A DNA stretch of 56,376 nt from Pseudogemmobacter humi. Its GTDB lineage: Bacteria > Pseudomonadota > Alphaproteobacteria > Rhodobacterales > Rhodobacteraceae. The stretch is from positions 1-56,376 of the forward strand of contig NZ_UXAW01000032.1 of assembly GCF_900609055.1 (NCBI RefSeq). Reading direction: 5' to 3'. Under the pieces are notes generated by a model, which was not told where the DNA came from, did not search any database, and saw nothing but the letters and a program-made list of their open reading frames with translations. Every line of letters starts with the position of its first letter. Position 1 is the first letter of the stretch. This document shows, piece by piece, positions 5,068 to 17,678 of this stretch. The translations under genes and the position numbers were made by a program.

Positions 5068-6375
5068 ATGACAGCCAACGGGAATCGCGAGTTTTGGGAC
5101 GCAGCGCGCCATCTGGTGCGCTATGGCGGCGCCTTCGATCAGGTCATCATCCAGCGCGCGTCCGGCAGCCATCTGTATGATGCCGACGGGCGGGCGATCC
5201 TTGATTTCACCTCGGGCCAGATGTCGATGCTGGTGGGCCACAACCACCCCCGTATCACCGAAACGATCCAGCGCCAGGCGGCCGAGACCGTTCATCTTTT
5301 CAGCGGGATGCTGTCATGGCCGGTGGTGAGTTTCGCCCAGAGGCTGGCCGGGCTGGCCCCGGGGCTGGACCGGGTTCTGCTGCTGTCCACCGGCGCGGAA
5401 TCGAACGAGGCCGCGATCCGCATGGCCAAGCTGGTGACGGGCAAGCACGAGATCGTGGCCTTTTCAAAAAGCTGGCACGGCATGACGAATGCCGCCGCCT
5501 CGGCCACCTATTCGGCGGGCCGCAAGGGCTATGGTCCGGTGGCGGTCGGATCGCTGGCGATCCCCGCTCCCAACACTTACCGCCCCCGGTTTCTCGACAG
5601 CGACGGCAATCTCGACTGGCGGACAGAGCTGGATGATTCCTTTGCCATGGTCGATGCGCAATCGACCGGCAGCCTTGCCGCCTTTATCGCCGAGCCGATC
5701 CTGTCCAGTGGCGGTATCCTTGAACTGCCGCCCGGCTATCTGGCGGCGCTGAAAGAGAAATGCCGCGAACGCGGGATGCTGCTGATCCTGGATGAGGCGC
5801 AGACCGGCCTTGGCCGCACCGGCGACATGTTCGCCTTTCAGCGCGATGGCGTGACGCCCGACATTCTGACGCTGTCGAAAACCATCGGTGCGGGTCTGCC
5901 GCTGGCGGCCGTGCTGACCTCGGCCGAGATCGAGGAACGCGCCCATGAACGGGGTTTTCTGTTCTACACCACCCATGTCTCGGACCCGCTGCCCGCCGCC
6001 GTCGGCCTGACCGTTCTCGACATCGTCGAGGAGGAGCAACTGGTCGCGCGCGCGCGCCGGATGGGCGCCCTGTTGTTCGAGGGACTGAACGCCCTGAAAC
6101 AGCGGTTCGACTGTGTGGGCGATGTGCGCGGGCGCGGCATGATGGCGGGGGTAGAGATCGTCTCTGACCGCCGCGACCGGCTGCCCGACCACGAAACCGG
6201 CGCCCGCATCTCGGCCGAGGCGTTGCGGCGGGGGCTGAGCATGAACATCGTCCGGCTGCCGGGGATGGGCGGGGTCTTCCGTCTGGCCCCGCCGCTGACG
6301 ATGAGCGAAGCCGAGCTGGAACGGGGCCTTGGCCTGATGGCCGAAGCGATCGAAAGCACCGTCAGCCCGGCCTGA
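5068..6375 (+). CDS. dgdA: 2,2-dialkylglycine decarboxylase (PLP, class III aminotransferase fold)
   Basis: The 435-residue protein follows the Burkholderia cepacia enzyme closely over its whole length. Key residues are kept: Q51 and M52 (TSGQMS), W136 (SWHG), D242 and Q245 (LDEAQ), the PLP lysine K271 (LTLSKT) and the GMGGVFR arginine near the C terminus, which correspond to Q52, M53, W138, D243, Q246, K272 and R406 of that enzyme. The family decarboxylates alpha,alpha-dialkyl amino acids such as 2-aminoisobutyrate or isovaline to a ketone, then transaminates pyruvate to alanine. It heads the mutase-transporter operon and has a strong AGGGGGA ribosome binding site. The product from 2-aminoisobutyrate would be acetone. 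How this connects with the mutase downstream is not settled by the sequence. Confidence 0.88.
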
Positions 6376-6452
6376 CCGGCCACCCCTCCCGCAAAACAAA
6401 CGCAAACGCAGCGCCTGGCAGCACGCCCGGGCGCAGGAAGGAGACTTGTCGC

Positions 6453-6905
6453 ATGACGACACAGAACAACAGCGCACCGGCCGGAACCACCTCATCTGCC
6501 CCGCAGCGCATCCGCGTTCTGGTGGCAAAGCTGGGGCTGGACGGTCATGACCGGGGCGCCAAGGTTGTCGCCCGTATTCTGCGCGATGCGGGAATGGAAG
6601 TGATCTACTCCGGCCTTTACAAGACGCCCGCGCAGGTCGTCGATGCGGCGATACAGGAAGATGTCGATGTGATCGGGGTCAGCCTGCTGTCCGGCTCTCA
6701 TGGTCCGCTGTTCGGCGCCTTGTGCCAGCAATTGCGCGACAAGGGCGCCGGGCATGTGCTGGTGGTGGCAGGCGGCGTGATCCCCGAACAGGATTATGCC
6801 GGGCTTCTGGAAAGCGGCGTCAACGCCATCGTGCCGCAAGAGGCGCGGTCCGAACTGATCGTCACCACCATCCGCGATATGGTCGCGGCGCGGGGACCGA
6901 TCTGA
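6453..6905 (+). CDS. hcmB: 2-hydroxyisobutyryl-CoA mutase, small (B12-binding) subunit
   Basis: The 150-residue protein is a stand-alone cobalamin-binding domain. The base-off motif DxHxxG is D30-x-H32-x-x-G35 (GLDGHDRGAK), with H32 as the lower axial ligand of cobalt. The expected LLSGSH segment and the VAGGVIP loop follow. A strong AGGAAGGAG lies ahead of the ATG. Small separate B12 subunits of this size go with the 560-residue large subunits of isobutyryl-CoA or 2-hydroxyisobutyryl-CoA mutases, not with the fused methylmalonyl-CoA mutase. It is two bases from the G-protein gene, so stoichiometric co-expression is expected. Confidence 0.87.
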   Translation: MTTQNNSAPAGTTSSAPQRIRVLVAKLGLDGHDRGAKVVARILRDAGMEVIYSGLYKTPAQVVDAAIQEDVDVIGVSLLSGSHGPLFGALCQQLRDKGAGHVLVVAGGVIPEQDYAGLLESGVNAIVPQEARSELIVTTIRDMVAARGPI

Positions 6906-6907
6906 CC

Positions 6908-16176: not shown

Positions 16177-16179
16177 GTA

Positions 16180-16485
16180 ATGGAAATCTGGGAATTTTTC
16201 TTCATCACGCTGCTTCTGGGCGGGCTGGCGGGCTGGATGACGGGCCGCGCCCTTGCCCGCAGCTGGCAGGGTGATCTGCGGCTTGTCTTCTACATGGTCC
16301 TTTTGGCGGGCGCGGTGCGCTTTCTGCACTTTGCCCTTTTCCAGGGCGCTCTCCTCTCGGCTTCCGGCTATGCGGCCGATTTCGCGACGCTTGCCGTGAT
16401 CGGCTTTGCGGGCAAGCGGCTGACCCGCGCGCGCCAGATGACCACCCAGTATCGGCTGTTTCCGGCCGGATCTCCTCCGGACTGA
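16180..16485 (+). CDS. small membrane protein of the Liv operon (DUF6867-like)
   Basis: The 101-residue protein has three hydrophobic segments (about residues 5-25, 36-55 and 63-80) and ends in a cytoplasmic tail with the KRLTRARQMTTQYRLF pattern. I recognise it as the DUF6867 type, small proteins that sit between livF and livJ in alphaproteobacterial amino-acid transporter operons. It starts four bases after livF. Its function is not known; an accessory subunit of the transporter is a fair guess from the constant position. Confidence 0.7.
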   Translation: MEIWEFFFITLLLGGLAGWMTGRALARSWQGDLRLVFYMVLLAGAVRFLHFALFQGALLSASGYAADFATLAVIGFAGKRLTRARQMTTQYRLFPAGSPPD

Positions 16486-16577
16486 TCCCGGGACGAAAAC
16501 GGGTGCCGCGCAAAGATGCCCCGGGGGGCACCCGGCCACAGCATGAACCAGGGCATCGACCAACAAGGAGATACGAC

Positions 16578-17678
16578 ATGAAAAGGATGCTGATGACCGG
16601 GGCGGCGCTTGGTCTTGTGCTGTGCGGCCCCGCCTTCGCAGATACGAAGGTCGCGGTTGCCGGCCCGATGACCGGGCAATATGCCTCTTACGGGGAACAG
16701 ATGAGGGTGGGTGCCGAGCTGGCGGTCGAGGACATCAATGCCGCCGGCGGCGTCAACGGCGAACAGCTGGTGCTGAGCGTGGGGGATGATGCCTGCGATC
16801 CGAAACAGGCCGTCGCCATCGCCAACCAGTTCGCGGGTGAGGGTGTGGTCTTTGTCGTCGGGCATTTCTGCTCCGGCTCCTCGATCCCGGCCTCGGCGGT
16901 CTATGCCGAAGAGGGGATCATCCAGATCTCGCCCGCCTCGACCAACCCGGCCTATACGGACGAACGTCCCGGCCCCGGCATCCTGCGCATCTGCGGCCGC
17001 GATGACGATCAGGGCAGGGTCGCGGGCGAGTTTCTTGCCGCCCGGTTCCTCGACAAGAAGATCGCCTTCGTCAACGACAAGACCGCCTATGGCAAGGGTC
17101 TGGCCGATGCGACGCTGGCCACCTATGAGGCCGCCGGCGGCAAGGCTGCGATGACCGAGGCCTATACCGCAGGTGAAAAGGACTATACCGCGCTGGTTTC
17201 CAAGCTGAAAAGCGAGGACATCGATCTGCTTTACGTCGGCGGCTATCACACCGAGGCCGGCCTTCTGGCCCGCCAGATGCGCGAGCAGGGCATGGACACC
17301 ATCGTCATGTCCGGCGACGGGCTGACGACCGCTGAATACTGGGCGATCACGGGCGAGGCGGGCGAAGGCACCCTGCTGACCTTCTCTCCCGACCCGCGCA
17401 AGAATGCAGATGCGGCGTTGATCGTCGACAAGTTCCGCGCCAGGGGCATCGAACCCGAAGGGTATGTTCTTTATACCTATGCTGCGGTTCAGGCCTGGGC
17501 CCAGGCCGCGCAAGCCGCCGGTTCCGCAGATTTCGACCCGGTGGTGAAGGGGCTGGACGAAGGCACGTTCAACACCGTGCTGGGCGAACTGGGCTTCAAT
17601 GAAAAGGGCGACGCGACCCTGCCGGGCTATGTCGTCTATGAGTGGAAAGCCGGAAACTACGACTACTTCGTTCAGTAA
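16578..17678 (+). CDS. periplasmic substrate-binding protein, Leu/Ile/Val-binding type (LivJ-like)
   Basis: The protein has 366 residues from the ATG at 16578, which has AAGGAG nine bases upstream. A Sec signal peptide (MKRMLMTGAALGLVLCGPAFA) precedes a type I periplasmic binding fold with the family motifs VAVAGPMTGQYASYGEQM, INAAGGVNGE and the GHFCSGSSIPAS ligand-binding loop. It is the last gene of the operon and would deliver the substrate to LivHMGF. Ligand specificity cannot be read, but the serine/threonine-rich loop that contacts the carboxylate and amino group of amino acids is present. Confidence 0.9.
   Translation: MKRMLMTGAALGLVLCGPAFADTKVAVAGPMTGQYASYGEQMRVGAELAVEDINAAGGVNGEQLVLSVGDDACDPKQAVAIANQFAGEGVVFVVGHFCSGSSIPASAVYAEEGIIQISPASTNPAYTDERPGPGILRICGRDDDQGRVAGEFLAARFLDKKIAFVNDKTAYGKGLADATLATYEAAGGKAAMTEAYTAGEKDYTALVSKLKSEDIDLLYVGGYHTEAGLLARQMREQGMDTIVMSGDGLTTAEYWAITGEAGEGTLLTFSPDPRKNADAALIVDKFRARGIEPEGYVLYTYAAVQAWAQAAQAAGSADFDPVVKGLDEGTFNTVLGELGFNEKGDATLPGYVVYEWKAGNYDYFVQ

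Follow-up and report, generated by a model that had tools for sequence, protein, structure and literature searches.

A conserved operon joining dgdA to a B12 mutase in Pseudogemmobacter humi, with a predicted role in the uptake and degradation of small alpha-quaternary acids

Gene content of the locus

We analysed a 56,376-nt stretch of the Pseudogemmobacter humi genome (contig NZ_UXAW01000032.1, positions 1 to 56,376; hereafter the window, to which the gene coordinates below refer) that carries dgdA, a gene for 2,2-dialkylglycine decarboxylase (DGD), in one operon with the genes of a B12 acyl-CoA mutase. The genome measures 4.47 Mb and is listed as 100% complete. According to the open reading frame (ORF) list and the translations, twelve plus-strand genes span 5068-17678 in the order dgdA-hcmB-meaB-hcmA-ech-acs-livHMGF-DUF6867-SBP, the last encoding a substrate-binding protein (SBP). 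The larger intergenic gaps are three, dgdA-hcmB (77 bp), acs-livH (67 bp) and DUF6867-SBP (92 bp), and at the remaining junctions 2-9 bp separate the genes, or 1-4 bp are shared between them. A LysR gene (4114-5007) diverges from dgdA, and beyond it lie an AraC-type gene and a minus-strand pair of thiolase and short-chain dehydrogenase/reductase (SDR) genes (1042-3018). A preliminary description of this DNA had named the operon genes and placed them in one direction, mostly with short gaps or overlaps, which the ORF list and the profile and PDB matches bore out; its gene identities held as well, with DgdA closest to DGD entries and HcmA closest to 4r3u. The genes are the following.

1042-2223, minus strand: thiolase (acetyl-CoA C-acyltransferase); TIGR01930 396 bits, above its cut-off of 240.55; PRK06954 629 bits, below its cut-off of 687
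2251-3018, minus strand: type-II (HSD17B10-like) SDR 3-hydroxyacyl-CoA dehydrogenase; top PDB match 4o5o, a 3-hydroxyacyl-CoA dehydrogenase (402 bits); 2o23 (HADH2) 257 bits
3097-4110, plus strand: AraC-type regulator; QhpR model 153 bits, below its cut-off of 250
4114-5007, minus strand: LysR-type regulator, DgdR-like; 51% identical to the LysR protein encoded beside a stand-alone dgdA of Agrobacterium fabrum
5068-6375, plus strand: dgdA, 2,2-dialkylglycine decarboxylase; 643 bits to 1d7r, 70% identical to the Burkholderia cepacia enzyme
6453-6905, plus strand: hcmB, cobalamin-binding small subunit of an acyl-CoA mutase; PF02310; TIGR00640 144 bits, above its cut-off of 57
6908-7903, plus strand: meaB/meaH, G-protein chaperone of the mutase; TIGR00750 307 bits, above its cut-off of 240.75; PF03308
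7900-9591, plus strand: hcmA-like large mutase subunit with V90, D117 and P201; 730 bits to 4r3u; assigned also by residues and tree
9601-10350, plus strand: ech, crotonase-family protein; PF00378; E114 and E134 present
10350-11966, plus strand: acs, AMP-forming acyl-CoA ligase, PRK06155/CaiC-like; PRK06155 469 bits, below its cut-off of 722; CaiC-type PRK08008 268 bits, below 651
12034-12951, plus strand: livH, HAAT permease; PF02653
12951-14504, plus strand: livM, HAAT permease; PF02653 and PF11862
14501-15442, plus strand: livG, ATPase; LivG model 335 bits, below its cut-off of 362
15439-16176, plus strand: livF, ATPase; LivF model 318 bits, below its cut-off of 441
16180-16485, plus strand: DUF6867 small protein; PF21741 91 bits, above its cut-off of 27
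16578-17678, plus strand: SBP, periplasmic amino-acid-type binding protein; top PDB match 3ip5, an amino-acid SBP (380 bits)

Homology of the LysR protein starts at residue 17, so the true start of its gene may be an internal ATG. Pattern scans gave 2 promoter-like matches against 2.7 expected and 19 terminator-like matches against 9.7 expected, and were not used.

Conservation and spread of the operon

A pattern-based, non-exhaustive scan of one genome per species over 84,980 species kept 79 loci, 31 of which carry a mutase at least 75% identical to that of the window and form the related set; genes were counted from a tblastn table. Homologues of hcmB and meaB were present in 31/31 related loci, and those of lysR, dgdA, ech and acs in 30/31 each. 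The strict order, divergent lysR followed by dgdA-hcmB-meaB-hcmA-ech-acs, was kept in 29/31. The exceptions are L011, without lysR, dgdA, ech and acs, and L014, with two inverted copies; the latter is a Rhizobium metagenome contig (2124-14707), and its doubled operon is either a duplication or a misassembly. Around this core the SBP recurs in 27 of the 31 loci, the AraC-type gene in 16, and the SDR and thiolase genes in 11 each. All four Liv homologues were found only in L016 among the related loci, and three of them (no livH) in L078; a complete set of Liv permease genes next to the operon characterises the window. A major facilitator superfamily transporter gene after acs was seen only in Sinorhizobium loci. 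De novo clustering of the neighbouring ORFs was noisy, with abundant long antisense ORFs, and is not the source of these counts.

We then compared the divergence of the genes by Mantel tests on pairwise distances over 28 rows (25 for the SBP), leaving out L011, L014, L033 and L082 beforehand. For dgdA, acs, ech, lysR and meaB, these distances track those of hcmA with r between 0.89 and 0.94 (0.93 for both dgdA and acs), and the SBP follows more weakly (r 0.66); 0/999 permutations were as high in either case. In L082 (Brucella cytisi) and L033 (Rhizobium sp. G21) the mutase match falls into several pieces, and the gene looks broken or badly sequenced. Because 29/31 loci share the order and the genes diverge together, the combination is more than chance. 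The preliminary description had not recognised the combination; it is real and conserved, and it is undescribed as far as searched, since none of the listed matches from the openly licensed literature describes a dgdA-mutase operon in its title or the start of its abstract.

The spread of the operon is patchy. Among 390 sampled genomes of the window's taxonomic order, such a mutase (E 1e-190) occurs in one, that of the window itself, and 20 plasmid records carry a mutase at least 60% identical, with copies of the operon on rhizobial plasmids. Such a distribution would suit two unrelated catabolic units sharing one mobile metabolic island, DgdA drawing nitrogen from 2-aminoisobutyrate and the mutase pathway serving another tertiary acid, and we know of no compound that needs both. 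We regard this as rather unlikely, as the strict order with dgdA first beside a DgdR-like regulator in 29/31 loci and the congruent divergence exceed what passive linkage would give.

DgdA and its regulator

The top solved relatives of DgdA are DGD entries, with 643 bits to 1d7r against 227 bits for the next class-III pyridoxal phosphate enzyme. Of 40 checked positions, 39 are identical in all 32 operon copies, that of the window included; the remaining one, position 407, varies between Ile (28 copies) and Leu (4 copies). The active-site residues Q52, S80, W138, M141, S215, K272 and R406 are invariant in 32/32 copies, with roles that for most checked positions we presume from the known enzyme. 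S215, K272 and R406 are named as DGD residues in the excerpted text of PMC10169451, which also states that yeast DGD1 yields acetone from 2-aminoisobutyrate and uses isovaline as well. By these residues DgdA keeps the DGD active site, and decarboxylation of 2-aminoisobutyrate to acetone is predicted. A repurposing of DgdA as a 3-aminoacyl-CoA transaminase is disfavoured, the checked positions being unchanged in all copies except at 407.

The mutase and its predicted subtype

The top PDB match of HcmA is 4r3u, 2-hydroxyisobutyryl-CoA mutase (HCM), with 730 bits, compared with 430 bits for mitochondrial methylmalonyl-CoA mutase (MCM). As in HCM, the large and small (B12) subunits of this acyl-CoA mutase family are separate, and the window enzyme has the HCM-type Asp117 and Gln208, where MCM has Ala and Arg. 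Asp117, which we take to be the hydroxyl contact of HCM, was kept in 30/30 dgdA-linked mutases. In contrast, Ile90 of the HCM pocket, presumably as in the characterised Aquincola tertiaricarbonis enzyme, was not present: position 90, which like 117 we take to be a substrate contact, is Val in all 30 dgdA-linked mutases and also in L011, P0017 (a 47%-identical mycobacterial mutase), L030 and L069. Ile90 was found in both rows of known clusters and in 41/42 other rows; only L003, from the window genome itself, lacks it.

Among candidate pocket positions, a list that we presume from MCM, V90, P201, L241 and M365 were invariant in the 30 dgdA-linked rows and present in L011 and P0017, and were absent from 44 other rows. 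This comparison leaves out L030 and L069, which have V90 and M365 but neither P201 nor L241, and four remote rows (L002, L070, L073 and L074) with none of these residues. The mutase of L145, 93% identical to P0017, carries V90, D117 and P201. S240 was dropped as a mark of the subtype, since the MCM of the window genome has it too, as do L030, L069, L070, L073 and L074. In a quick tree of 80 mutase rows (L033, L082, L071, L080 and L003 dropped beforehand), the dgdA-linked mutases and L011 formed one fully supported group on a long stem; its neighbours were L030 with L069, then the HcmA of Methylibium and Xanthobacter with L042. The L011 mutase nests within the group. It departs at 8 positions that are invariant in the dgdA-linked rows, none of them a candidate pocket position, and at position 126, which is Leu in 29 dgdA-linked rows and Met in one, it has Phe.

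Judged by these residues and the tree, the HcmAB of the window belongs to a subtype apart from the characterised HcmA; turnover of 2-hydroxyisobutyryl-CoA is predicted. The earlier assignment as a 2-hydroxyisobutyryl-CoA mutase stood for the family (4r3u, Asp117, Gln208) and failed for the characterised HcmA type (V90, P201, L241, M365). Asp117, in its predicted role, also argues against a pivalyl-CoA mutase. Levulinate-type routes via alpha-methylglutamate were disfavoured, as Asp117 would imply a hydroxyl or amino group on C2.

Two further observations concern relatives of this enzyme. The alphaproteobacterial loci L030 and L069 show a third arrangement: the order is hcmB, the 2-hydroxyisobutyrate-CoA ligase gene (HCL), meaB and hcmA, followed by a crotonase gene whose product is about 50% identical to that of the window; their mutases have V90 without P201. 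A mutase of the mycobacterial L053 type occurs in 1/394 sampled genomes of its class, L053's own (E 1e-190), and in no plasmid at E 1e-150.

Ligase, crotonase, SDR and thiolase

The acs product gave no significant match to HCL of the known Methylibium cluster (28% identity over 118 residues, E 0.19). At E 1e-25, HCL homologues were found in 42/50 other loci of the mutase family versus 0/32 loci of the window's subtype (a count that leaves out L084 of A. fabrum, which has no mutase), where the PRK06155/CaiC-like acs ligase takes the place of HCL except in L011. From these comparisons acs is not the known 2-hydroxyisobutyrate-CoA ligase, and its substrate is not readable from sequence. E114 and E134 of the crotonase, which we take to be its catalytic Glu residues, are widely kept, the first in 34/34 and the second in 33/34 rows with the window copy included. 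On two actinobacterial plasmids, homologues of acs (37-39% identical) follow an enoyl-CoA hydratase gene, and ech with acs may form an independent module. In these plasmids, from Dietzia (L120, 8228-10569) and Rhodococcus (L121, 7186-9560), the crotonase gene stands directly before the ligase gene and no annotated mutase lies nearby.

Enzymes of the HSD17B10 type, to which the SDR belongs, oxidise 2-methyl-3-hydroxybutyryl-CoA. The mutase could mainly be a C5 enzyme that converts 2-hydroxy-2-methylbutyryl-CoA to 3-hydroxy-2-methylbutyryl-CoA (or 3-hydroxyvaleryl-CoA), from which SDR and thiolase would give acetyl-CoA and propionyl-CoA, with isovaline as the DgdA substrate. The smaller pocket residue V90, found also in the L053 enzyme beside an ordinary hcm cluster, suggests a different acid, but V90 in L030 and L069 goes with HCL-type ligases and alone is no proof of C5. 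In favour of C5, genes for acyl-CoA carboxylase, MCM and epimerase lie near the operon of Shinella L083, and L024, L027 and L072 have mutase homologues in the corresponding position; however, the Shinella cases are close kin and perhaps reflect one event, and the same SDR type also oxidises 3-hydroxybutyryl-CoA. We consider this C5 proposal, a narrower form of the interpretation preferred below, rather unlikely.

The importer and its binding protein

The SBP has 3ip5 and its kin as nearest solved relatives, which we take to be Atu2422 of Agrobacterium, and its contact residues are assigned roles on the same presumption. Across 27 SBP homologues, position 77 is Phe in 21 and Tyr in 6, position 79 Ser in 26 and Thr in 1, positions 100-102 AST in 26 and SAT in 1, and position 121 Asp in all 27; Tyr150 and Asp226 were found in 26 each, with one homologue unaligned at each position. 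At the position taken as 202, the Tyr of the window is shared by 1 of 27, with Leu in 25 and one unaligned, and therefore the ligand of the window SBP may differ from those of the others. The LIV-type SBP with amino-acid contact-type residues, together with LivHMGF (the LivG and LivF models staying below their cut-offs), are features of an amino-acid importer of the HAAT type. The importer is assigned to that type on these features, and its ligand is predicted.

Lyase, acetone carboxylase and loci without dgdA

The preliminary description had left open that acetone from DgdA is joined to formyl-CoA by a thiamine diphosphate (ThDP) lyase encoded elsewhere, giving 2-hydroxyisobutyryl-CoA, and had called for a genome search for this lyase and for acetone carboxylase. 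Acetone and formyl-CoA are the products of a reversible actinobacterial lyase in the excerpted texts of PMC7176365 and PMC8760513, and such a route is proposed for sulfate reducers in that of PMC7888143. We searched 31 genomes (that of L021 lay outside the set) with the 2-hydroxyacyl-CoA lyase model NF058623 (cut-off 600 bits). The model passed in 1/31, the genome of L011, which joins mutase and lyase but has no DGD at E 1e-110; it passed in 0/30 dgdA-bearing genomes including that of the window. The three matches in the window genome reached 211, 171 and 170 bits. For the proteins behind the two weaker matches, NCBIfam models give the names 5-guanidino-2-oxopentanoate decarboxylase (730 bits against a cut-off of 500) and sulfoacetaldehyde acetyltransferase (1010 bits against 620), and the 211-bit protein resembles acetolactate synthase by sequence look; three more ThDP-domain matches (L090-L092) were weak. 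With no lyase over the cut-off, entry through acetone and formyl-CoA was rejected for the window genome, and in general we find it very improbable. An intermediate lyase match of 358 bits, below 600, was seen in the dgdA-bearing Labrys locus L101 (genome G010).

The search for acetone carboxylase, in contrast, was positive: the gamma subunit (PF08882) was found in the window genome with 179 bits. Matches to PF08882 occurred in 13/30 other genomes, 10 strong and 3 weak, and acetone carboxylase as a universal partner of the operon was rejected.

In L011 (Peristeroidobacter soli), hcmB-meaB-hcmA is followed by a gene for 3-hydroxybutyryl-CoA dehydrogenase (418 bits, cut-off 408), and the opposite strand encodes the ThDP enzyme that passes the lyase model (658 vs 600 bits; 453 bits to 7pt1). 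The mycobacterial loci L053 and L145 carry a lyase-like gene, mutase, hcmB, an acs homologue and meaB, with an SDR homologue in L053 and none found in L145. At E 1e-110, DGD was found in 0/3 of the genomes of L011, L053 and L145. In L053 (1-11635), the cluster of lyase-like, mutase and acs-type genes lies beside an ordinary hcmB-HCL-meaB-hcmA cluster. Because the L011 mutase falls inside the dgdA group and stands with a lyase and a 3-hydroxybutyryl-CoA dehydrogenase, this mutase type would go with 2-hydroxyacyl-CoA and 3-hydroxyacyl-CoA. The subtype of the window's mutase thus appears to be associated with 2-hydroxyacyl-CoA enzymes where DgdA is absent.

L011 is also the strongest result against an aminoacyl-CoA route, since it has the same subtype, with the checked pocket positions unchanged except 126, beside a lyase and a 3-hydroxybutyryl-CoA dehydrogenase. 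In that route, acs would make 2-aminoisobutyryl- or isovalyl-CoA, the mutase would move the thioester to give 3-aminoacyl-CoA, the crotonase would remove ammonia, SDR and thiolase would finish, and DgdA would take the same amino acid for nitrogen. It would fit the importer evidence across loci, which points to amino acids, the DgdR-like regulator, and the replacement of HCL by a CaiC-like ligase, a type that presumably acts on zwitterionic carnitine-type acids; Asp117 could equally hold an ammonium group. However, DgdA would be partly redundant, we know of no aminoacyl-CoA skeleton mutase of this kind, and 3-aminoacyl-CoA ammonia-lyases are not known to be crotonases. We hold this route to be quite unlikely. 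If true, alpha,alpha-dialkyl amino acids would have, next to DGD and AibH1H2, a third breakdown route, one that needs no oxygen and conserves carbon, and its mutase would be, to our knowledge, the first aminoacyl-CoA carbon-skeleton mutase.

Neighbouring genes

A piece of an IS5-family transposase (NF033580, 112 bits, cut-off 110) lies at 102-473, at the left end of the contig near the thiolase gene. Directly downstream of the operon is a nos cluster on the minus strand (18089-27031). It includes NosZ (ORF 22599-24815; 1090 bits, cut-off 625), a NosR-like protein (24563-27031; 807 bits, below the cut-off of 1000) and an ApbE-like protein (18089-19006; 70 bits, under its cut-off), and the intervening ORFs resemble NosD, NosF, NosY and NosL by sequence look.

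Discussion

We propose, with about an even chance of being right, that the locus is an island for the uptake and degradation of small alpha-quaternary (geminally branched) C4/C5 acids, every substrate being deduced from sequence. Two branches would serve related compounds under one regulator. In the first, the HAAT importer with its amino-acid SBP would import 2-aminoisobutyrate or isovaline, and DgdA would act on it by decarboxylation and transamination, yielding L-alanine and either acetone or butanone; acetone carboxylase of the window strain would turn acetone into acetoacetate. In the second, acs would activate the matching 2-hydroxy acid (2-hydroxyisobutyrate and/or 2-hydroxy-2-methylbutyrate), HcmAB with MeaB would rearrange the 2-hydroxyacyl-CoA to 3-hydroxyacyl-CoA, and crotonase, type-II SDR and thiolase would carry this to acetyl-CoA (with propionyl-CoA as a further product for the C5 acid).

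The conserved order, the co-divergence, the DgdA residues, the DgdR-like LysR, the amino-acid SBP, Asp117, L011, the mycobacterial loci and the acetone carboxylase gamma subunit are all consistent with this proposal. Several points weigh against it. No single compound passes both DgdA and the ligase-mutase branch, so the proposal accounts for the tight linkage only in part. In its details the ligase shows no relation to HCL. An importer for the hydroxy acid conserved across loci was not seen, in neighbour clustering that was noisy. PF08882 is absent from 16/29 other dgdA-bearing genomes and weak in 3, and lyase-like genes stand also beside ordinary hcm clusters (L085, L067), so they are no mark of the subtype alone. 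All results are compatible with the earlier suggestion that amino acid and hydroxy acid enter at two separate points, each of its steps being predicted, and the two-branch island appears to be the most economical reading. The alternative in which acetone enters through a formyl-CoA lyase found no support in the 30 dgdA-bearing genomes searched.

Ordinary amino-acid enzymes need an alpha hydrogen, which is missing in alpha,alpha-dialkyl amino acids. The recurrence of DGD with a B12 skeleton mutase, a different ligase and an amino-acid-type SBP suggests a fuller route for such compounds, for example from fungal peptaibols, which is directly testable in culturable rhizobia. The gene block, which some thirty related bacteria share, brings together two enzymes that were known from different pathways, and its probable role is to import and break down small branched acids resistant to most enzymes. 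Engineering work on 2-hydroxyisobutyrate and lactyl-CoA would also gain a natural mutase subtype that is new and a ligase other than HCL.

Comparison with known systems

The nearest counterpart of the DgdA branch is the stand-alone dgdA on plasmid At of A. fabrum C58 (L084), whose DgdA is about 70% identical and shares all checked residues but one position, and whose adjoining LysR gene is the 51%-identical relative of the window's. Unlike in the window, dgdA is not followed there, nor in Rhizobium sp. ACO-34A, by genes for a mutase, a ligase, a crotonase or Liv proteins; dgdR-dgdA of B. cepacia is presumably also a stand-alone pair. Catabolism of 2-aminoisobutyrate is shared with AibH1H2 of Rhodococcus wratislaviensis, an oxygenase route via alpha-methyl-D-serine for which the excerpted text of PMC7782822 (2021) names no mutase or CoA ligase step; according to the same text, DGD had up to that time been the only known enzyme that reacts with this amino acid. 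The ketone formylation clusters of Desulfococcus and Desulfosarcina, compared by description only, have a ThDP enzyme in the cluster and no DgdA mentioned in the excerpt of PMC7888143. In the lyase-mutase loci L011, L053 and L145, the mutase has V90, D117 and P201 in all three and an acs homologue is present in the last two, but a lyase stands instead of DgdA (by the model in L011, by similarity only in L053 and L145).

Aquincola is presumably a further case of a 2-hydroxyisobutyrate hcm cluster (see also PMC7176365). In its excerpted text, PMC7176365 reports hcl with mutase genes, a GntR gene as usual upstream and clusters in Fabaceae nodule isolates; those of PMC13188929 and PMC11599936 describe an isobutylene cluster with ligase, mutase, dehydrogenase and thiolase, and treat HCM homologues, respectively. 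The closest relatives of the mutase branch are the hcmB-hcl-meaB-hcmA clusters of Methylibium PM1 (L085) and Xanthobacter Py2 (L086), which share the mutase family (about 57% identical), MeaB, a CoA ligase and Asp117. Compared with them, the window has no HCL between hcmB and meaB and a PRK06155/CaiC-like ligase after the mutase, the mutase differs by I90V, I201P, I241L and L365M, LysR replaces the GntR regulator, and dgdA and the Liv genes are added.

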